From the NCBI GenBank assembly GCA_963920705.1, contig OY987232.1:19222442-19286441 (forward strand): a stretch of 64,000 nt of DNA. The letters run 5' to 3'. The position numbers were made by a program, and so were the translations under genes. Of this stretch, positions 33,765 through 55,406 are shown piece after piece. This DNA is from Odiellus spinosus. Its lineage: Eukaryota > Arthropoda > Arachnida > Opiliones > Phalangiidae. The notes below the pieces were generated by a model. The model had not been told where the DNA came from. It worked only from the letters and a program-made list of their open reading frames with translations, and did not search any database. Numbering within the stretch: the stretch's first letter is position 1; each line of letters starts with the position of its first letter.

Positions 33765-36604
33765 AGAACAACAGCAACTCTCCATAAGAGTCTGGGTCCA
33801 CGTAATGTTAAAAATTTTCGTCTCTTTTATGATAAATTCGTATTATATTATTAAAATAGGGTAGTTGGGGGATAATTTAAAGCTAAAATTCGAGCTCACA
33901 ACTGTAAATTTTGGGAATTACAACGAATGGAAGGTTTCTTCCATAATGTAAAGAATAGGAAGAATCTATGACTTCCGTGCCGGATATGAAAGCCTTCCCC
34001 CACATGAAAATCTTGAACGGTTATTATTTTAGATTCATAATTATGTTAGGAAAATATTAGGAAAGAATTATTTTGTAACTGCCACGGGTATAGTGCTGGC
34101 GGCAAAATGAAATTCGTATATTTTTGGTCTACTATGCCTCGAAATCCTCGAAAACGCCTGTAGAAGTGTTCCACTTGTCAAGCATTCATGCAGTAGGCTT
34201 TTGCTAGCTTCACAGGGGCCGTGCAAAGACTATATAGCTTACTTGAATAGTCTTTGGTGTATAATAAACTCGAAAAATAAATAGAGAAATCATACCAATT
34301 AGAAGATACTGGAGTAGTATCTTTAATTTTTATTTCATATTAAACAAAACACACTTGTATAAAACGGACAAATTATTCATTTAACGCTAAGGTTTTCTAC
34401 GTTTAACGTATGTCTGGTAGTTCAAGCTCAGTGGCATCTTCACACACTACACGCAATTTTGACTGGTACCAACTGCCTCGATCTTCATGGCGACGATAAC
34501 CAAGATACCAGATTACGCTGCTAACGTGAACACAAGTACCTATCGTCAAACTACCACCTTTGCAATTGCAATACCAGCCTTTAATGGCATTTGCACCTGT
34601 CCCGTTCGGTACATAACGAATTAGAGCTTGGTGAACAGCTGAGGTGGAAAATTGACCAGGCACGCGTATACGAATTAAGTCATGTTCAACTTTGGACACT
34701 TCGACGCTGAAAGAGCCGGATTTCTCTATAGTCAACGCCACATAAGATTCAGCGCGTTTCGTTTTAAAGTCGCTCATTACCACCTCACGTACATCACTTT
34801 CACGAAGTACAGGGAAGTCTTGAAATTCACTATCCTCAATTCGTTGCCATTTAGACGGTTTGCGAAGCAAATTATCGCGCTCAACTACTTCCTTAAGAGG
34901 ATTTTCTTTCGTAGAGACTGCCAGCATTTTTTCGACGGAGTCTTCCCAGGAACCTTTAAGATGTAACTCCGGGTGGTAGGCGTTCAACAGCGCAGCAGCA
35001 ATTTGAAGAAGTTCCGGAACTAATGGTAACATATGCACAGGTATACGGTTTTGAAAAAAACGATACACCGTCTGCAAATGCCCATTCCTAACTTCAACCA
35101 GCCACCTGAGGTACGTTACTTGTCGGGAACGATTAACTTCTTGCGTGTTTACTTGCTTCTCGCCTTTAGACAAGAACGAAGGCATTTGTAAATCCACACC
35201 CAGTTCAGTCAGTACGCTGTTGGAGTCTCGGAAACCGCGGTCCGCCAGTACAGCATCACCAACTTGAAAGAAAGACTGGAGTTCTTCTCTTTTTTTGATA
35301 GAATGGTTTAAAATGCGCGCGTCGTTATTGCGGCCATTAGCGAAGTAAGGTCCGATTATATCTATTATGTAACCCGTAGTTGTTACCATTAACATTGGCT
35401 TGAGGATATGCTGGCCTTTGTGCACACAGAATGATTTGTGAAGAACTGTATAGTCCTTGGATCTTCCAACCTTGATATAGGTGCCATCTACAATGGTAAT
35501 AAGACAATTAGGCTTGTTGCTAGCAAAGAGTTTTACAGCTGCTTCAGATTGATGGTTTCTTATCAAATTGTCACGTGATAAGTGTTGCAGGCCAAAATGA
35601 TGTGGCACGAAACGCTCCGATAAAGCCATAATAACCGCTTTTACCGTGTTTGATACCGATCTTTCAGTTAAATGAAATATAGTTGATAACACCTTATTGG
35701 AGATACCCAATCGTAATTTCACCAATAATACTGCTAGAGCTGTCTTCGATGAACAGCATCTGATGGTATGAATAACGTCCTCAATAGAAGAATGCACCTC
35801 TAGGAACTCGTGCAGGGACAATGATGTTAATACTTTACAGTCCTCATCACTTTGTATGAAGTTGTCAAAGCTCGGCGTCCGTAGGTCGTTAACACACTTT
35901 CTGAGGTCGTTTAATAGTTTCTCAATGTCCGTGGCAGTCATAATGGTTGATCTAGCGGAAACCTGAATTCCAGCAATTATATCAGTGGGAAGCTCACCGT
36001 TAACGAGATGCGTGGAGCACATTCGGTTGTCCTGATGAATAAAGATTGCTCTTTCCACAAATATACTTGTTCGCACCTCGGCTTTTACTCTGGTTCGTGT
36101 ACTCGCACTGCAAATGAAGCAAGTCTTGGACAGGGGCCGAACACAACTGTGCTTTATGACAATGATGTTTGATGACGTAAGCTTTCGTGGTAATTGCGAC
36201 GTTGATGGTTGAGGTATTGGTGAAGCTGATAGATTAGATACTGTTGACGTTGATGATTCGGGTACTGTTGACGTTGATGGATTAGATACTTGCGTTAGTT
36301 TTCTTCGTTTTTGCGGTGAAGACGATGACGTTGAAGACCCATGATCACTACTGAAGGACGATTTGCTAGCATTTAAGAACGTTTGAAACTTTCGTGATAA
36401 CCCGGAGCATTTTAAACAAATCTTCGTTGTTTTGCTATTAATTACGAGTGGTAATAACCCTTTATTAAAACGAAGAAAACGAGCAAAACTAGCCTTTGCG
36501 TGAGTACCTATACCTCTACTTGTACTATTGGTAACTTTCCGATTGCACGCGTAACATGTATTTGGAGCCATCTCCAAATTCGAATTGACGATTACATTGA
36601 TGTT
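33765..36604 (-). repeat. Left arm of the palindrome
   Basis: Inverted partner of 36709-39572. Outer parts (UTR and the 3' third of the gene) match almost base for base, for example one difference at the AAATTATCGCG/GATAATCTGC site. The inner part next to the centre carries many substitutions. Confidence 0.9.
34403..36571 (-). CDS. DDE_Tnp_4/SWIM-type transposase, left copy
   Basis: Encodes 722 aa from an ATG at 36571 (MAPNTC; the upstream frame begins only with a TTG). Visible modules: an N-terminal C6/C9...C52/C55 zinc-finger-like set; a Ser/Pro/Thr-rich low-complexity linker; a second Cys/His cluster (CFIC...CSTH); a helix-turn-helix-like segment (ISNKVLSTIFHLTERSVS); and an RNase H-like DDE core of the IS5/PIF-Harbinger (DDE_Tnp_4) type, with VDGTY (D362), ADRGFRD (D444) and VEVRNGHL (E493). 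The C-terminus has a SWIM-type finger, CNC...CVH. It should act in the nucleus as a cut-and-paste transposase with extra zinc modules for DNA or protein contact. It is intact and intronless. A minus-strand AATAAA follows at 34329-34334. Superfamily assignment (ISL2EU- or Harbinger-related) is uncertain. Confidence 0.9.
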   Translation of the reverse strand: MAPNTCYACNRKVTNSTSRGIGTHAKASFARFLRFNKGLLPLVINSKTTKICLKCSGLSRKFQTFLNASKSSFSSDHGSSTSSSSPQKRRKLTQVSNPSTSTVPESSTSTVSNLSASPIPQPSTSQLPRKLTSSNIIVIKHSCVRPLSKTCFICSASTRTRVKAEVRTSIFVERAIFIHQDNRMCSTHLVNGELPTDIIAGIQVSARSTIMTATDIEKLLNDLRKCVNDLRTPSFDNFIQSDEDCKVLTSLSLHEFLEVHSSIEDVIHTIRCCSSKTALAVLLVKLRLGISNKVLSTIFHLTERSVSNTVKAVIMALSERFVPHHFGLQHLSRDNLIRNHQSEAAVKLFASNKPNCLITIVDGTYIKVGRSKDYTVLHKSFCVHKGQHILKPMLMVTTTGYIIDIIGPYFANGRNNDARILNHSIKKREELQSFFQVGDAVLADRGFRDSNSVLTELGVDLQMPSFLSKGEKQVNTQEVNRSRQVTYLRWLVEVRNGHLQTVYRFFQNRIPVHMLPLVPELLQIAAALLNAYHPELHLKGSWEDSVEKMLAVSTKENPLKEVVERDNLLRKPSKWQRIEDSEFQDFPVLRESDVREVVMSDFKTKRAESYVALTIEKSGSFSVEVSKVEHDLIRIRVPGQFSTSAVHQALIRYVPNGTGANAIKGWYCNCKGGSLTIGTCVHVSSVIWYLGYRRHEDRGSWYQSKLRVVCEDATELELPDIR

Positions 36605-36741
36605 TTTGACAGCCAGGTTGGCGAAAAATAATTAAACCCGTTTTTATAAACATTACAAAAAATTAATATCTGGTTTGAACCATGATCTTAAAAGCTTTCC
36701 TTATCACTAACATCAATGTGAGAGTCACTTGGAATTTGGAG
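36572..36741. promoter_or_regulatory. Shared intergenic promoter region of the divergent transposases
   Basis: Only 170 bp separate the two ATGs. The central 104 bp (36605-36708) is unpaired and the flanking 33 bp on each side are homologous. Any promoter for both genes must lie here or inside the coding regions, which implies a compact bidirectional promoter. I see no canonical TATA or initiator that I would commit to. Confidence 0.45.
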
Positions 36742-39572
36742 ATGGCTCCAAATACATGTTACGCGTGCAATCGGAAAGTTACCAATAGTACAAATAGAGG
36801 TATAGGCACTCACGTAAAGGCTGGCTTTGCTCGTTTTCTTCGTTTTAGTAAAGGGTTATTACCACTTGTAATTAATAGCAAAACAACGAAGATTTGTTTA
36901 AAGTGCTCGGGTCTGTCACGAAAGTTTCAAACGTTCTTAAATGCTAGCAAATCGTCCTTCAGTAGTGATCATGGCTCTTCAACGTCATCGTCTTCACCAC
37001 AAAAACGAAGACAAATGACGCAAGTATCTAATCCATCAACGTCAACAGTACCTGAGCCATCAACGTCCACAGTACCTGAACCAACAAAGTCCACAGTATC
37101 TAATCCATCACCGTCACCAATACCTCAGCCATCAACGTCGCAATTACCACGAAAGCGTACGTCATCAAACACTATTGCCATAAAGCACAGTTGTGTTCGG
37201 CCCCTGCCAAAGACTTGCTTCATTTGCGGTGTTAGTACACGAACCAGGGTAAAAGCCGAAGTGAGAACAAGTATATTTGTGGAAAGAGCCATATTTATTC
37301 ATCGGGACAACCGAATGTGCTCCACGCATCTCGTTAACGGAGAGCTTCCCACCGAAATAATTGCTGGAATTCAGGTTTCCGCTAGATCAACCATTATGAC
37401 TGCCACGGACATTGAGCAACTATTACAGGACCTCAGGAAATGTGTTAACGACCTACGGACGCCGAGCTTTGACAATTTCATACAAAGTGATGAAGACTGT
37501 AAAGTATTAACTTCATTGTCCCTGCACGAGTTCCTAGAGTTGCATTCGACTATTGAGGACATTATTCGTACCATCAGATGCTGTTCGTCGAAGACAGCTC
37601 TAGCAGTATTATTGGTGAAATTACGATTGGGTATCTCCAATAAGGTGTTATCAACTTTATTTCATTTAACTGAAAGATCGGTATCAAACACGGTAAAAGC
37701 GGTTATTATGGCTTTATCGGGGCATTTCGTGCCACATCATTTTGGCCTGCAACACTTATCACGTGACAATCTGATAACAAACCATCAATCTGGAGCAGCA
37801 GTAAAACTCTTCGCTAACAACAAGCCTAATTGTCTTATTACCATTGTAGATGGCACCTATATCAAGGTTGGAAGATCCAAGGACTATACCGTTCTTCACA
37901 AATCCTTCTGTGTGCACAAAGGCCAGCATATCCTCAAGCCAATGTTAATGGTAACAACTACGGGTTACATAATAGATATAATCGGACCCTACTTTGCTAA
38001 TGGCCGCAATAACGACGCGCGCATTTTAAACCATTCTATCAAAAAGAGAGAAGAACTCCAGTCTTTCTTTCAAGTTGGTGACGTTGTACTGGCAGACCGC
38101 GGTTTTCGAGACTCCAACAGCGTACTGACTGAACTGGGTGTGGATTTACAAATGCCTTCGTTCTTGTCTAAAGGCGAGAAGCAAGTAAACACGCAAGAAG
38201 TTAATCGTTCCCGACAAGTAACGTACCTCAGGTGGCCGGTTGAAGTTAGGAATGGGCATTTGCAGACGGTGTATCGTTTTTTTCAAAACCGTATACCTGT
38301 GCATATGTTACCATTAGTTCCGGAACTTCTTCAAATTGCTGCTGCGCTGTTGAACGCCTACCACCCGGAGTTACATCTTAAAGGTTCCTGGGAAGACTCC
38401 GTCGAAAAAATGCTGGCAGTCTCTACGAAAGAAAATCCTCTTAAGGAAGTAGTTGAGCGCGATAATCTGCTTCGCAAACCGTCTAAATGGCAACGAATTG
38501 AGGATAGTGAATTTCAAGACTTCCCTGTACTTCGTGAAAGTGATGTACGTGAGGTGGTAATGAGCGACTTTAAAACGAAACGCGCTGAATCTTATGTGGC
38601 GTTGACTATAGAGAAATCCGGCTCTTTCAGCGTCGAAGTGTCCAAAGTTGAACATGACTTAATTCGTATACGCGTGCCTGGTCAATTTTCCACCTCAGCT
38701 GTTCACCAAGCTCTAATTCGTTATGTACCGAACGGGACAGGTGCAAATGCCATTAAAGGCTGGTATTGCAATTGCAAAGGTGGTAGTTTGACGATAGGTA
38801 CTTGTGTTCACGTTAGCAGCGTAATCTGGTATCTTGGTTATCGTCGCCATGAAGATCGAGGCAGTTGGTACCAGTCAAAATTGCGTGTAGTGTGTGAAGA
38901 TGCCACTGAGCTTGAACTACCAGACATACGTTAAACGTAGAAAACCTTAGCGTTAAATGAATAATTTGTCCGTTTTATACAAGTGTGTTTTGTTTAATAT
39001 GAAATAAAAATTAAAGATACTACTCCAGTATCTTCTAATTGGTATGATTTCTCTATTTATTTTTCGAGTTTCTTATACACCAAAGACTATTCAAGTAAGC
39101 TATATAGTCTTTGCACGGCCCCTGTAAAGCTAGCAAAAGCCTACTGCATGAATGCTTGACAAGTGGAACACTTCTACAGGCGTTTTCGAGGATTTCGAGG
39201 CATAGTAGACCAAAAATATACGAATTTCATTTTGCCGCCAGCACTATACCCGTGGCAGTTACAAAATAATTCTTTCCTAATATTTTCCTAACATAATTAT
39301 GAATCTAAAATAATAACCGTTCAAGATTTTCGTGTGGGGGAAGGCTTTCATATCCGGCACGGAAGTCATAGATTCTTCCTATTCTTTACATTATGGAAGA
39401 AACCTTCCATTCGTTGTAATTCCCAAAATTTACAGTTGTGAGCTCGAATTTTAGCTTTAAATTATCCCCCAGCTACCCTATTTTAATAATATAATACGAA
39501 TTTATCATAAAAGAGACGAAAATTTTTAACATTACGTGGACCCAGACTCTTATGGGGAGTTGCTGTTGTTCT
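36709..39572 (+). repeat. Right arm of the palindrome
   Basis: Inverted partner of 33765-36604. It is longer by 24 bp in the Ser/Pro/Thr linker of the gene. It ends with the complement of AGAACAACAGC just before TTAA. Confidence 0.9.
36742..38934 (+). CDS. DDE_Tnp_4/SWIM-type transposase, right copy
   Basis: Encodes 730 aa from the ATG at 36742, aligned with the start of the left copy; the frame is open a further 20 codons upstream but homology stops there. It has the same architecture: C6/C9/C52/C55 cluster, linker with an 8-residue insertion (an extra STVPEP-type repeat), CFIC...CSTH cluster, D370, D452, E501, and SWIM residues C676, C678, C688 and H690. About 30 substitutions separate it from the left protein, all before residue 500. 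The last 231 residues are identical. One change, Leu to Pro at 499, lies two residues before the catalytic Glu. AATAAA follows at 39003-39008. It is intact and probably functional; whether both copies are expressed cannot be told. Confidence 0.9.
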   Translation: MAPNTCYACNRKVTNSTNRGIGTHVKAGFARFLRFSKGLLPLVINSKTTKICLKCSGLSRKFQTFLNASKSSFSSDHGSSTSSSSPQKRRQMTQVSNPSTSTVPEPSTSTVPEPTKSTVSNPSPSPIPQPSTSQLPRKRTSSNTIAIKHSCVRPLPKTCFICGVSTRTRVKAEVRTSIFVERAIFIHRDNRMCSTHLVNGELPTEIIAGIQVSARSTIMTATDIEQLLQDLRKCVNDLRTPSFDNFIQSDEDCKVLTSLSLHEFLELHSTIEDIIRTIRCCSSKTALAVLLVKLRLGISNKVLSTLFHLTERSVSNTVKAVIMALSGHFVPHHFGLQHLSRDNLITNHQSGAAVKLFANNKPNCLITIVDGTYIKVGRSKDYTVLHKSFCVHKGQHILKPMLMVTTTGYIIDIIGPYFANGRNNDARILNHSIKKREELQSFFQVGDVVLADRGFRDSNSVLTELGVDLQMPSFLSKGEKQVNTQEVNRSRQVTYLRWPVEVRNGHLQTVYRFFQNRIPVHMLPLVPELLQIAAALLNAYHPELHLKGSWEDSVEKMLAVSTKENPLKEVVERDNLLRKPSKWQRIEDSEFQDFPVLRESDVREVVMSDFKTKRAESYVALTIEKSGSFSVEVSKVEHDLIRIRVPGQFSTSAVHQALIRYVPNGTGANAIKGWYCNCKGGSLTIGTCVHVSSVIWYLGYRRHEDRGSWYQSKLRVVCEDATELELPDIR

Positions 39573-45805: not shown

Positions 45806-47850
45806 GATAATATTCAAAATTACGCGTTTGAAATAGGATAATATTCAAAATTAGGCGTTTGAAATTGGAAAATATTCAAAATTAGGCGTTTGAAATTAGA
45901 TAATATTCAAAATTAGGCGTTTGAAATTAGATAATATTCAATATTACGCTTTGAAATTGGATAATATTCAATATTACGCTTTGAAATTGGATAATATTCA
46001 ATATTACGCTTTGAAATTGGATAATATTCAATATTACGCTTTGAAATTGGATAATATTCAATATTACGCTTTGAAATTGGATAATATTCAATATTACGCT
46101 TTGAAATAGGATAATATTCAATATTACGCTTTGAAATTGGATAATATTCAATATTACGCTTTGAAATTGGATAATATTCAATATTACGCTTTGAAATTGG
46201 ATAATATTCAAAATTACGCGTTTGAAATTGGATAATATTCAAAATTACGCGTTTGAAATTGGATAATATTCAAAATTACGCGTTTGAAATTGGATAATAT
46301 TCAAAATTACAAGTTTGAAATTGTATAATATTCAAAATTACGCGTTTGAAATTGAAAAATATTCAAAATTACTCGTTTGAAATTGAAAAATATTCAAAAT
46401 TAGGCGTTTGAAATTGGATAATATTCAAAATTAGGCGTTTGAAATTGGATAATATTCAAAATTAGGCGTTTGAAATTGGATAATATTCAAAATTAGGCGT
46501 TTGAAATTGGATAATATTCAAAATTAGGCGTTTGAAATTGGATAATATTCAAAATTAGGCGTTTGAAATTGGATAATATTCAAAATTAGGCGTTTGAAAT
46601 TGGATAATATTCAAAATTAGGCGTTTGAAATTGGATAATATTCAAAATTAGGCGTTTGAAATTGGATAATATTCAAAATTAGGCGTTTGAAATTGGATAA
46701 TATTCAAAATTAGGCGTTTGAAATTGGATAATATTCAAAATTAGGCGTTTGAAATTGGATAATATTCAAAATTAGGCGTTTGAAATTGGATAATATTCAA
46801 AATTAGGCGTTTGAAATTGGATAATATTCAAAATTAGGCGTTTGAAATTGGATAATATTCAAAATTAGGCGTTTGAAATTGGATAATATTCAAAATTAGG
46901 CGTTTGAAATTGGATAATATTCAAAATTAGGCGTTTGAAATTGGATAATATTCAAAATTAGGCGTTTGAAATTGGATAATATTCAAAATTAGGCGTTTGA
47001 AATTGGATAATATTCAAAATTAGGCGTTTGAAATTGGATAATATTCAAAATTAGGCGTTTGAAATTGGATAATATTCAAAATTAGGCGTTTGAAATTGGA
47101 TAATATTCAAAATTAGGCGTTTGAAATTGGATAATATTCAAAATTAGGCGTTTGAAATTGGATAATATTCAAAATTAGGCGTTTGAAATTGGATAATATT
47201 CAAAATTAGGCGTTTGAAATTGGATAATATTCAAAATTAGGCGTTTGAAATTGGATAATATTCAAAATTAGGCGTTTGAAATTGGATAATATTCAAAATT
47301 AGGCGTTTGAAATTGGATAATATTCAAAATTAGGCGTTTGAAATTGGATAATATTCAAAATTAGGCGTTTGAAATTGGATAATATTCAAAATTAGGCGTT
47401 TGAAATTGGATAATATTCAAAATTAGGCGTTTGAAATTGGATAATATTCAAAATTAGGCGTTTGAAATTGGATAATATTCAAAATTAGGCGTTTGAAATT
47501 GGATAATATTCAAAATTAGGCGTTTGAAATTGGATAATATTCAAAATTAGGCGTTTGAAATTGGATAATATTCAAAATTAGGCGTTTGAAATTGGATAAT
47601 ATTCAAAATTAGGCGTTTGAAATTGGATAATATTCAAAATTAGGCGTTTGAAATTGGATAATATTCAAAATTACGCGTTTAAAATTGAATAATATTCAAA
47701 ATTACGAGTTTAAAATTGAATAACATTCAAAAATACACGTTTAAAATTGAAAAATATTCAAAATTAGGCGTTTGAAATTGGATAATATTCAAAAATAGGC
47801 GATTTAATTTGGAAAACATTTAAAAATACACATTAAAAATGGAAACTATT
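45806..47850. repeat. 2 kb satellite with 30 bp and 31 bp sub-arrays
   Basis: A left flank of 31 bp units is followed by nine 30 bp units (ATAATATTCAATATTACGCT + TTGAAATTGG, about 45931-46200). A mixed zone follows, then about 41 nearly identical 31 bp units (ATAATATTCAAAATTAGGCG + TTTGAAATTGG, about 46385-47655), and decaying units to 47850. The 30 bp block is a multiple of three without stops, so it gives spurious open frames on both strands. These are not genes. Confidence 0.95.
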
Positions 47851-49333: not shown

Positions 49334-49337
49334 TTAA

Positions 49338-49913
49338 AGGGATAATGAAAGGGCGAAACAACCTATTTTTTATCGATTAAGAATGATAAAATAATGAGAA
49401 AAACATTAACAAAACTCACCAAAAAGGTTTCGTTAATTTGTAATCAATTTTCAAAGTCCCAAACTTCAAGCTGCTAAGCCTTGGTCGGTAAATGGGGCGA
49501 GCACGACCTGTATTTTTTTTTAAATGCGCGGAGGCCCAGGATCCAATCACGAGCTAGTACGCTTTTTTTATTGTCAGCCACTCAGAGCGCGCCCTGATTT
49601 TCTACTTGATTTTAGTCTGGTTCGATTGAATTCTCGCCTCTTTTTCAAGTTTACAAACTAAAGTAAGTTGTTTTATCATGTGAATTTTAATTTATTCTAT
49701 TTTATAAATCAATCTAAAATATTTACTGATATTGGGTGAAATTTCTAGGGATTATTTAGCAACTACATGAGGTGAAATGATTTAAAAGTCCAAGGCTTAC
49801 ACGCTATGCTATAGTGGCTATGCTCTATAGTCTTCAAACTTCAAAGATTAAAAGTTCAAAACTCGCGATAAGTTTAACTTCTACTTAAACTATTATTCAA
49901 GATCGGATTAGTA
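49338..49913 (+). repeat. Left terminal inverted repeat (576 bp)
   Basis: Matches 54827-55402 in reverse from AGGGATAATG through GATCGGATTAGTA with no length difference. It lies immediately upstream of the accessory gene, whose ATG is 84 bp further in, so it should contain that gene's promoter. Confidence 0.93.
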
Positions 49914-49996
49914 TTATTTTAAATGCTTTCCAAGTCCCAATTACTTAATTTCGACGGCTACGTAGACTGTAGACTCATTAGACTACTCTCTCTGAG

Positions 49997-50797
49997 ATGA
50001 GTTCGATCCAACCTTACAATTTTGAACCTTTGGTAAGGGATCAACCACTATCCCAGCCCCTACTATCAGAATCTGATTCTGAAACCGAAGACAGAAATGA
50101 GCAACAACCAATTAACGCTGAACGTGTGGGAAATATAAACTGGTGCTCGTGCAACAATTGCGAGGTAATGGATACAGAGAGAGAAAGTTTATGCTGTCGC
50201 GAGGTGCCAAAAGTTTTGGAGAAATTGCATTGTCTACCTTGCGTTTTACTTTGGCCACGGTTTATTAAAAACTGTTTAGATTTAGATGTATTGGAGCCTG
50301 CGTACGATCGTTATGTACAAGAAACGAATGACAGAAATGACTACGAGATACATATGTAAGCCCAAGATTTATTATTATATTGACTAAAGTTACATGAGGT
50401 TTGGTAATGGAAAAGTGCGCTCCGCTATAGTAATCTTAGAGCCCTTTTGTAATGGCGCTCATTAAGAATTACTATTAGCGTGCCGCTTTTAGAATTAAAA
50501 CAAGAGATGAAAGGGGTCGAGTTTATCAAACGTAAAATGGCTAGCAAATCTAACATTACGCAACTCTTCTTCATTCCTAAGAGAAGTGGGCTTTTAGCAG
50601 GCTTTCAAACCCATGTTTACAATCTTCTATTTATTTTTAGGAAATATAGATACGTTGCCTACAGGCAGTTTGTTAGCATCATTTACCGGAAATTAGGGAG
50701 AAATAGAAGAGTAATCCTTCCAAGTTGCGTGATTAGCAAAATTAGAGACACTTTTCCAAGCGAAGAATATGCGGGATTTAAATATCCCCGTTACTAA
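49997..50797 (+). CDS. P2X7 C-terminal (ballast)-like accessory protein of the transposon
   Basis: Two exons, 49997-50355 and 50641-50797, joined across a 285 bp GTAAGC...TTTTTAG intron, encode 171 aa in frame. An acidic/Ser-rich N-terminus (1-40) is followed by W49-C-x-C-xx-C-xx-M-x-T-xx-E-xxx-C-C (C50, C52, C55, C66, C67). The second exon carries YRQF...ILPSCVISKIRDTFP...YAGFKYP. This order of Cys and C-terminal PSC/IR/FP/GF motifs is what I know from the cytosolic ballast domain of P2X7 receptors, which binds zinc and guanine nucleotide. There is no membrane segment, so this is not a receptor. Its role in transposition is unknown; DNA or protein binding is an inference. An AATAAA lies at 50853-50858. 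Confidence 0.82.
50356..50640 (+). other. Intron of the ballast-like gene
   Basis: The donor is CATAT|GTAAGC; the acceptor is TATTTTTAG|GAAAT. Joining completes an ATG (Met120) and keeps the frame into exon 2. The open frame beginning inside the intron at 50480 reads into exon 2 but its upstream part shows no family similarity, so it is not taken as coding. Confidence 0.75.
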
Positions 50798-50844
50798 TTT
50801 CAAGATTTTATATATGTATATAATGATACTTAAGTTCCACACGT

Positions 50845-50858
50845 TTTATTCTAATAAA
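50845..50858. terminator. Back-to-back polyadenylation signals
   Basis: AATAAA on the minus strand (TTTATT at 50845-50850) lies 10 bp past the transposase stop. AATAAA on the plus strand (50853-50858) lies 56 bp past the accessory stop. The two convergent transcripts must therefore overlap at their 3' ends. Confidence 0.65.
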
Positions 50859-50859
50859 T

Positions 50860-53800
50860 TTATTTTAAAAATCTCTTTTTTTTCTGTGCAATCACATCAC
50901 TTTTATTGATATTTAAAGAAAGTTTATCTGATAGTTTTTCGACGTGGCAAGCTGGTGCCATTAGAGTGTAACTGGCAGATGCATTTGCAGCATTTTCGTA
51001 AGTTTTTTGCATTAGTAATTCCACATATTCTACAAAAATAAGCGTAATTATCATTACGTGATAAAGTATTGTATTTATCCAAAACAGTTCCTAATTAATC
51101 TCCTCTTCCCAAAATTACTACAGTAAAACCTTGATAAAACAATATTCCAGGGAATAATTTTATGTTCTGATTTTCAGTTAGTGCAGGTAGGGCTTGCAAA
51201 TTATAAGGCGGTAAATTTAAAAATATTTGTTCTAAGTAGGGGTGTACGAGTACCCTGTCGCGAGTCCGAGGCGAGTCGGGACTCTCAACCTGTTTCTTCT
51301 GGACTCGCGCGAGTACCCAAGTCCTCCATTAGGGCTAAAACATTACTCGAGAAGGACTCAAAAAGAGGTGTAAATACAAAAGGAGTCCAAATTTTTGGGC
51401 TAGTCCATATTTTTACAACAGTTTCTATCCTTTTAGTTAACTTACTTAACCTTTAACCACTGTACTACTAAAAAAATTCTTTATCATGGAATATTCCAAT
51501 ACAATAGTAAATAGTATAGGGTGGTGGACATCATCTTTGTTTTGGCCACAGAAATTTTGGGCTCGTCTTGGACTCGAAACCATTTCTTAAGGACTCGAGG
51601 ACTCGGCGAGTCCTGTTTTCAGAGGACTCGGACGAGTCCGGTTTTCCAGGACTCGGGACTCGACTGGAAACCCAAAAAAACAGGACTCGCACACCCCTAT
51701 TAGAAGCAATATTTTGTTTTAACGCGTTCCGTTACGATATATTAGGGAAGAGGTGATTAATTGATATAGGGCAGGAATTAAAGTATAGAGTTGTGCAAAC
51801 CAAATGTACTGTCTTCTAGTAGTTTTTTTGCACTAGCTTCTCCGCCTTTGCCTTTAGGAAATGCCAAAAAGTAAACTTCCTCGCCATGTTCATCAACGAC
51901 TTGTTCTTTGTGCCCATTTTCATTAAAATGCAACACTGCCAGAATAACTCTACAACATTACAACGTACCTTTTATTAATTTTTATGATAAAAAATATTCT
52001 TACGATAGTTTGAAAACTAACCTTGATTTCATAGAATCTGCAAAAAAATGTAACCTTTTCGGACAGAAAGAGTTCAAAACCGAGTGAAACACTTCCACCG
52101 AATAAGTTTGATAATCGTTGGATAAATTAGCGATACCAGAAAGGGTGTAAGGAGAGTTTACTATTTTTGAAATTTTGCAATATAAATCTGTACCTGTAAA
52201 ATATATTTAATTATATTAATATATTTTAAATAATATTAATAAAAGAAAAATTGCGCATTACCATGCTCAAGCCAAACTCTTATTTCGTCTTCGGGGATTT
52301 GTCCATGAGCGCAACTAGGAAATAGTTTACTGTGACCTTGATGTATGTTACACATGTGATTTAATATTGATCTCCATTTCTCAATTTTTTCTTCTTTTGT
52401 TGTTGACGAAGAGGCCAACCAGTATATATGATTAATAATTCCTTTTATCCAAAGTTTCAACTCCCCGCACCCTTTTTGATTAGCGATGCCATTTAGTTTT
52501 GTTTTGACGTCTGTAAATAATAACAAATTAGCTCCGCATTTATTCGCAATTAAATTTGACATTAGAAAGATTCCTAGTTTAGGGCAAAATTTCATCTAAG
52601 ATATATTAATTACTGGAAAATCATTGCCAAGCCTCGGCGCAGTAACGTTAATCTTACTTTAAAACTTCAACCCTTTAGATTTATCGTTGTTGATAAATAC
52701 AAATAAAGCGTTCATTTTAACGTATTATATTCTCAACAAATTCATCAAAATTGCCACGTTTAAATTGACGAACATATCAAAAATTTAATATAGAATCGCT
52801 ACTCTTCATCCAAAGGCGCCGAGCAGACTACGTTTAACGCGTAATACTAGTACGGCTTTTATACGATAGATGGCTATGGCTATACGCGTATTGGCCAACT
52901 TTATTAGAACATTGAGGTTTTGAAATAAAATACATTACTTTTTGAAACGTGCCAGTTATCAAGCTCATGGACAATATCTTCATGGTTGTCTCGAAGGAAC
53001 GCCAAGATCGACGGGTGTTTATCCGTGACAACTTTACAAATATTTAATCCAAATGACTTCAAAAAAGTAAGCCCGCGTTTTAGACCTTCCAACTCCATCG
53101 CGTTAGAACTTGATACCTCCGTTGACTATAATTTTTACGCTATTGTTAGAAATTTTAAAATTTAAATTAAATAAAATAAATTGTTACTTGAACTAGCTCA
53201 ATGTGCAATATTTTATGGGACTTGGCTTCCATAAAAGTATACGTTCCGTACTTTGCTGAGTAGCCGGGGCTATCAGCTCTGCCATCACCACATATGGTTA
53301 TTGCCTCTGACAAGGAGGCAGCCAAGAGTTTTTCTTGTTCAGAAGACCACACCTATGAGATAATAATTAAGGCTTAGTCCATAATTTCAAAATTTAGCCA
53401 ATTTTTGACTTACTCTTTCAATAACGGGGTGGAACATTCTTTGATAATTAAAGTACATTCTGACGCTAAACATTTTCATCTTGAACTGCTTCAACGCGTT
53501 GATACACTTGGTTGGAAAAAGTCCCGAAAAGTAAATTGCTGCGGCCAATAAATAATTCCCCCATGAAGTTGAACCGCCGAATCGTGGTTGACTGTCCCAT
53601 TTGAAACAACATCCATTTAAACATTCCGTAATAATGGTCAAACTTGTACCCGAAAACTTTTCTGTTGTTTTTATAACTGGACTTGTATGGCAAGCGTGGC
53701 AAATTTTAAATAGCAGGAGTAAATTAGAGGCAAATACTATGTATTTATCTTCAAGATGAGGTTCCTTTTTTGATGGGAACTCTCCCCTGTAAAAAATAAA

Positions 53801-54819
53801 GATAGTTGAAACCAAAATCTCAAATTTTAAAAGAAAAGTCATACTCATCAGACGCGGAGTCGCTGCTATCCAGTTCCTTTTCGCACTGACTTCCTGATGG
53901 ATCGAAAGAAGAATCAATATTTCCTACTTCGCTTTCAGAAGTCAACGAAAGAGGCTGTGACTGTTGTGATTCTACCATCGGCGATGACGATTCATCTAAT
54001 TGTTGGATATCTGATGACTGCGAGAAACCTGACTGGGCTGAATATGAAAAAGCTAGTGCAGCTGTATAGGAAATAGGCTTTTCATTCCATGACTTCTCCT
54101 GAGAAAACTCTGGTGATGATGAACTACTATACTGAGTTTCTTGGTCAACTCCTTCAAAAACATAATAATTAAATAGAATTTATACTATATCATTAATATA
54201 CTTACCACGGATAGTTTGAGTACATTTAGTTCTAACAGAAGATATGGTTTGCGTTGAATGTGACTTAGTTTTGATATTCTATATTTGAAGAGGAAATTAT
54301 GCAATCAATATATGTAGATCTTTGAATAAAACTTATTAGACCTAATCTTACAGTGGCTGAATATGTATGGAAAACATTGCTGGGATCGCCTACAACTCTA
54401 TCATATAACTTAGTTTCAATTTCCAAATTTTCTTCAATGTATGATTCATTAGAGGCTTCATTCGCGTTTGAAGTAGTAGGATTCATAGTTGCTTCTAACG
54501 AGCATGCCGCTTCTGTTACATTTGGTTCAGTTTTTTCATTAGTTCTGGCTATTTTAAAAACCGTAGGATCTACAATACTGGGAATCGCTGTTCGCTTAAT
54601 ACGTCGTTTCTGTGCTTTTTTTGTTCGCGGTAAAAAACATTCTGTTGTAAAATGTACTGAGCAAACTTTTATCTTTGTTGATGGTTTCCAATCTAAAGGT
54701 TTTCCTAAAGCTTCAATCCATTTGGTTCTCAGTTCTTCATCAGAGGGAAACTTAAAAAATGAAACTCCTTTGGACAATACAGTGTTATCGCAGTTGTACA
54801 CGCCACAACGAACCGACAT
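50860..54819 (-). CDS. THAP-domain Kolobok transposase, 10 exons, 770 aa
   Basis: Exons (high to low): 54819-54352, 54278-54206, 54151-53845, 53786-53414, 53352-53188, 53125-52939, 52510-52262, 52193-52022, 51949-51801, 51029-50860. All junctions are GT-AG and the frame is continuous. Residues 1-90 form a THAP zinc finger (C5, C10, C53, H56, W34) for DNA binding. A Ser-rich, acidic linker follows to about 285, then a Cys cluster (CHAC...CLNGCC). The DDE core has GDGRADSPG (D430/D434), TDKH (D497), DNWH (D518) and VEVFHS (E641). It acts in the nucleus, excising and inserting the element at TTAA. The last intron (51030-51800) contains the nested MITE; its donor (G|GTTTGC) is weak, so a shorter form ending at 51778 (721 aa) is possible. 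The ATG lies 8 bp inside the right TIR edge. Confidence 0.88.
51237..51699. mobile_element. hAT-like non-autonomous element nested in the transposase intron
   Basis: 463 bp with ends TAGGGGTGTACGAG and CTCGCACACCCCTA, which are inverted copies, and many internal ACTCG/CGAGT words (GGACTCGAGGACTCGG type). Subterminal short repeats of this kind are typical of hAT elements. Flanks TTCTAAG and TTAGAAG are not an exact duplication. It lies wholly inside the intron 51030-51800, so it need not disrupt the protein. Confidence 0.7.
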
Positions 54820-54826
54820 GTTATAC

Positions 54827-55402
54827 TACTAATCCGATCTTGAATAATAGTTTAAGTAGAAGTTAAACTTATCGCGAGTTTTGAACTTTTAATCTTTGAA
54901 GTTTGAAGACTATAGAGCATAGCCACTATAGCATAGCGTGTAAGCCTTGGACTTTTAAATCATTTCACCTCATGTAGTTGCTAAATAATCCCTAGAAATT
55001 TCACCCAATATCAGTAAATATTTTAGATTGATTTATAAAATAGAATAAATTAAAATTCACATGATAAAACAACTTACTTTAGTTTGTAAACTTGAAAAAG
55101 AGGCGAGAATTCAATCGAACCAGACTAAAATCAAGTAGAAAATCAGGGCGCGCTCTGAGTGGCTGACAATAAAAAAAGCGTACTAGCTCGTGATTGGATC
55201 CTGGGCCTCCGCGCATTTAAAAAAAAATACAGGTCGTGCTCGCCCCATTTACCGACCAAGGCTTAGCAGCTTGAAGTTTGGGACTTTGAAAATTGATTAC
55301 AAATTAACGAAACCTTTTTGGTGAGTTTTGTTAATGTTTTTCTCATTATTTTATCATTCTTAATCGATAAAAAATAGGTTGTTTCGCCCTTTCATTATCC
55401 CT
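54827..55402 (-). repeat. Right terminal inverted repeat (576 bp)
   Basis: Reverse copy of 49338-49913. Its inner edge is 8 bp upstream of the transposase ATG, so the transposase promoter and 5' UTR must lie in the repeat itself. Confidence 0.93.
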
Positions 55403-55406
55403 TTAA

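Follow-up and report, generated by a model that had tools for sequence, protein, structure and literature searches.

A 64,000-nucleotide stretch of the genome of the arachnid Odiellus spinosus (the window) carries an intact transposon that very probably belongs to the Kolobok superfamily, judging from its TTAA target site, its DDE-type transposase with a THAP domain and its DxxH signature, and that contains, as its second gene, the KolX typical of the Kol0 lineage. As predicted from its sequence, the KolX protein is homologous to the ballast domain of the P2X7 receptor, which coordinates zinc, and has no channel or membrane part. The family itself is new and well preserved; the Kolobok–KolX kind of element was already published in 2022 (PMC9587614).

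According to the account given by Kojima and Bao (2022, PMC9587614), KolX is the second protein encoded by the Kol0 lineage of Kolobok, is similar to residues 476–595 of human P2X7 and adopts the cytoplasmic ballast fold; P2X7 is described there as having originated when a P2X4-like gene fused to KolX, and nanor as a likely domesticated KolX. That this domain came from transposons, as raised in a first-pass annotation of the window, is supported as a reading and is already in print in that paper. Ballast-type domains have been described across Metazoa (Rump 2020, PMC7016195).

Table 1. Features of the Kolobok element, in window coordinates.
Feature	Position	Strand	Remarks
Whole Kolobok element	49334..55406		6073 bp including TTAA at each end; limits set by alignment with 16 other full copies, which stop at identical bases
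Left terminal inverted repeat	49334..49917	+	584 bp; separated by 79 bp from the ATG of KolX
KolX exon 1	49997..50355	+	Carries six zinc cysteines (C50, C52, C55, C66, C67, C82)
KolX intron	50356..50640	+	GT-AG; predicted from reading frame, splice signals and alignment
KolX exon 2	50641..50797	+	Carries C149 (the seventh cysteine) and R155; the ballast domain finishes here
Short inverted-repeat insertion	51236..51702		Between KolX and transposase; approximate ends
Transposase gene	51779..54819	-	8 modelled exons, 682 aa; THAP, then GDGRADSPG, VTDKHPS, DNWH, YSVEVFHS
Right terminal inverted repeat	54823..55406	-	584 bp; separated by 3 bp from the start codon of the transposase (54819)

All 17 full-length copies of the element (the window copy counted) have TTAA at both termini and are embedded in unrelated flanks. 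The termini read TTAA-AGGGATAATG at one end and CATTATCCCT-TTAA at the other; the bases immediately inside TTAA, AGGG...CCCT, agree with the 5'-RR/YY-3' pattern given for Kolobok (PMC9587614). The two inverted repeats are 99.83% identical, differing at one base. Over 6 kb, the copies depart from the majority sequence by 0–3 substitutions, plus a few indels: 7 bp of the left repeat are missing from the window copy and L020, 25 bp are inserted in L011, and L012 carries a single additional base. Another copy, L025, has undergone rearrangement and includes an extra inverted piece. Given how little the 17 full copies differ, this family appears to have moved very recently, and the sequences suggest that it was apparently active in recent times.

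The short inverted-repeat sequence inserted between KolX and the transposase gene is a later guest in the window family; the diverged relatives L026 and L028 are about 500 bp shorter at its site. Set against the published description of Kol0 Kolobok (PMC9587614), with which the family has in common a DDE transposase with DxxH, TTAA sites, 5'-RR/YY-3' termini and KolX, this guest insertion, the very low divergence between copies and the 584-bp repeats, which reach both gene starts, are no more than family-level details seen in the window family.

Elsewhere in the window, a long tandem array near the transposon (45820–47800, read by eye) is built of a unit of about 30 bases resembling TTGGATAATATTCAAAATTAGGCGTTTGAAA. 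Two similar open reading frames in inverted orientation, both with DDE_Tnp_4 domains (34403–36631, minus strand, 742 aa; 36679–38934, plus strand, 751 aa), are the transposase of another DNA transposon.

KolX runs from an ATG at 49997 to a stop codon at 50795–50797 and is predicted to yield a spliced product of 171 aa, as the first-pass annotation had proposed for this interval. From the donor used, 12 acceptors leave the frame open; the 171-aa version was chosen because the pyrimidine tract of its acceptor is good, as judged by eye, and because the product aligns across the P2X7 domain. The gene was found in all 17 full-length copies, and 16 of these encode the same protein, with one base change altering it in L024. 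The N-terminus of KolX varies between families: the motif [IV]QPYxFEPL (window 50006–50029) occurs in four of the 16 stretches searched (the window element and L026–L040), the other three being L026, L027 and L029, and was not seen at the start of the KolX types L030–L034, which are single-frame and some of whose N-termini are cut by stretch ends. KolX proteins of different families in the O. spinosus genome are 31–41% identical, and their cysteine core is strongly conserved in the KolX alignment.

The 171-aa protein matches the Pfam family P2RX7_C over residues 29–167 (E 4.8e-17; 62.9 bits, with a cut-off of 23.5), and no P2X channel family is among its Pfam matches at E up to 1, in keeping with the earlier reading of a protein with no channel or membrane part. 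When KolX was compared with the PDB by phmmer (E up to 10), five distinct sequences were returned, four of them P2X7 and one unrelated (E 0.14); the best match was 6u9v, in which KolX residues 46–169 align with rat P2X7 473–594 (E 2.7e-6). A profile of nine KolX sequences (that of the window and eight relatives, from the 13 KolX sequences aligned with rat P2X7) was run against the PDB, where its four hits with E no higher than 1 were P2X7 without exception (best E 1.9e-23), and P2RX7_C was matched by all nine members of this alignment. Profile comparison with P2X7 C-termini, which the first-pass annotation had put forward as a check on its P2X7 ballast-like protein inside a Kolobok transposon, thus gave significant matches with Pfam, phmmer and the nine-KolX profile alike.

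The window KolX keeps all seven zinc cysteines (C50, C52, C55, C66, C67, C82 and C149), which pair with C477, C479, C482, C498, C499, C506 and C572 of rat P2X7. In the alignment of 14 rows (13 KolX sequences and rat P2X7), five of the seven positions are invariant; the equivalent of C477 is absent in L031 and that of C499 in L030, all other rows keeping both. The cysteine-rich and PSC-containing motifs quoted in the first-pass annotation are present in the order given there, with the refinement that the conserved cysteine is C82, the equivalent of rat C506 and a cysteine in 14 of 14 rows, and not C79. As a zinc ligand, C79 was rejected, since it is not conserved (L026 has alanine there).

Besides the cysteines, KolX shares with the P2X7 ballast domain (PDB 6u9v and others) the pattern LPSC...KIR..FP....Y.GFKYP, and, from the guanosine site of the rat receptor (R546, H547, R574, R578 and K583), only R546 and R578. 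Unlike P2X7, it has neither a channel nor a palmitoylated anchor, and it lacks H547, R574 and K583, as is reported for invertebrate members of the domain family (Rump 2020, PMC7016195). We do not regard the guanosine-site residues as domain-defining, because the same paper gives the same two retained residues for other invertebrate members. In being short, in having the same cysteine domain and in having no transmembrane part, KolX resembles the ZCD or nanor-like proteins (PTHR36981); whereas no transposon link for these proteins appears in the parts of Rump 2020 (PMC7016195) consulted, the window KolX is linked to a transposon directly. According to Kojima and Bao (PMC9587614), this link of the ZCD or nanor-like proteins had previously not been pointed out.

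The transposase gene converges with KolX within the element. Its exon structure is one of many possible (1620 in-frame splice chains in one enumeration), with exon ends picked by splice-site score and by eye and with the first intron the least certain. The modelled protein has an N-terminal THAP domain (Pfam, E 1.4e-15) followed by GDGRADSPG (position 390), VTDKHPS (456), DNWH (479) and YSVEVFHS (599), its catalytic residues being assigned from motif order alone. DNWH, which by this order falls between the second D and the last E, is a form of the C/DxxH signature of Kolobok (PMC9587614). The model is open throughout in 16 of the 17 full copies; in L017, codon 667 of the 682 is a stop. The catalytic region had no Pfam match with E of 0.1 or lower, so membership in Kolobok rests on the target site, the termini, the signature and the presence of KolX as partner.

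A member of a different TTAA superfamily, for instance piggyBac, that had borrowed the KolX gene would have the same target site; we nevertheless consider this assignment very improbable and rejected it, since the AGGG...CCCT termini fit the Kolobok 5'-RR/YY-3' pattern, both the THAP domain and DxxH are present, and the window KolX keeps seven of seven cysteines, whereas piggyBac versions of the domain are said to be without most of them (PMC9587614).

With an E limit of 0.01, a P2RX7_C profile search of the genome gave 124 matches, of which 107 were used, representing 101 loci; the 17 dropped came from exon 1 of window-family copies that exon 2 already represented. A search with the transposase core gave 187 matches; 72 of the matches listed were used, representing 71 loci, and the rows omitted were further exon rows at the same places. 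Among the matches listed, 51 of the 101 KolX loci lie no more than 8 kb from a related transposase (about 0.26% would be expected per random site). By nearest match, and again among the matches listed, 50 of these 51 pairs are convergent, pairs that are not independent of each other, with 17 from the window family, 11 from the L029 family and 22 others, some of them mutual duplicates. The L029 family has one identical match score in all 11 members, with the partner at 1509 bp in 10 of them. The exception to convergence is L025, in which the nearest match is its own extra inverted piece; a convergent match is present as well, 2.6 kb downstream (C1:15090382). The elements L029 and L032 have Kolobok-like ends of their own (TTAA-AGGGTTACC with 27-bp arms, and TTAA-AGGAGTCC with 33-bp arms, respectively).

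For the other 50 KolX loci, a transposase is absent within 8 kb by coordinates, among the matches listed. When 12 stretches without a coordinate match were re-checked by tblastn, a convergent transposase was found in L026, L028, L030, L031 and L032 and, as a weak match, in L036; L033, L035, L037, L038, L039 and L040 had no accepted transposase by tblastn within the 4–9 kb read. For L033, the window transposase as query matched nothing with E of 0.01 or lower, and five pieces of three other transposases gave one weak far-end match (E 0.001) and four at chance level, none of which was accepted. The L033 contig, which has several KolX loci, carries a 274-aa open reading frame (L033:2–823) that, we presume, resembles a Maverick/Polinton capsid protein; the weak match falls in this presumed Maverick-type frame.

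On the transposase side, 19 of the 71 loci have no KolX listed within 8 kb, among the matches listed, a count to be read with the caveat that short KolX exons may escape a profile search of the genome. Because of these 19 loci, some related transposases may manage without KolX. Several transposase relatives with long open frames, among them C4:18191941 and C9:1598314 (838 and 604 aa), have no KolX listed within 8 kb; transposases of this type may belong to another lineage of Kolobok or be domesticated genes.

For estimates of selection, the window KolX was compared with that of L026, a diverged element of the same layout with both repeats and 68–89% identity in aligned stretches. Over the 114 codons compared in exon 1, dN is 0.22 and dS is 1.12; over the 47 codons compared in exon 2, the values are 0.09 and 1.21. 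On the strength of this single sequence comparison, KolX is under purifying selection; the low dN/dS is conservative, because the L026 transposase is decayed and some of the L026 changes are probably neutral.

These results bear on two other views of the gene. Host gene capture by transposons happens, and as the domain also belongs to a vertebrate host gene, KolX could be taken for a captured host fragment, a chance cargo useless to the transposon. We give this view practically no credence: purifying selection on KolX argues against it, as does the occurrence of the gene in the diverged same-layout element L026 and, at many further loci, next to related transposases, and the identification as a host fragment was rejected since KolX is present in every full copy. 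The first-pass annotation had likewise placed the gene second in an intact transposon and had called for a survey of other elements; the same gene recurs in 17 of 17 full copies and beside other related transposases in the genome, and the host fragment confined to a single copy that it had named as the contrary outcome did not turn up.

The small size of KolX, its 31–41% identity between families, its variable N-terminus and the 19 of 71 transposase loci without KolX within 8 kb, among the matches listed, would also suit a counter-defence or regulatory protein, one that blunts host silencing or tunes transposase expression instead of acting in DNA transfer. Such a function is possible but on balance improbable, as the cysteine core is highly conserved and dN is far below dS, a pattern by which arms-race proteins are often not marked.

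An accessory role of KolX in transposition, as suggested by the layout and conservation of the element, seems to us to have an even chance of being correct. Because the two genes start just inside the near-identical 584-bp repeats and face each other, KolX and the transposase are probably driven jointly by one promoter; the duplicated inverted repeat would be this promoter for both, and the two proteins would probably be expressed together. KolX would then probably be a soluble, zinc-stabilised accessory protein acting with the transposase, which could help to assemble the transposase–DNA complex or protect or repair the TTAA ends, and which selection would keep as a transposon component rather than as cargo. 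More speculative, and in our view unlikely, is the proposal that the ballast domain began as a transposition cofactor, with QPYxFEPL as its contact with the transposase.

No test of KolX function was found in the open-licence papers searched, and P2X7 offers no shortcut to that function, because even for P2X7 itself it is said to be unclear what the ballast domain does at the molecular level (PMC9859053). The near-identical and apparently intact copies in O. spinosus are a convenient place to learn the function of the ancestral protein, and the cofactor origin of the domain, if true, would be directly testable in this apparently active family.
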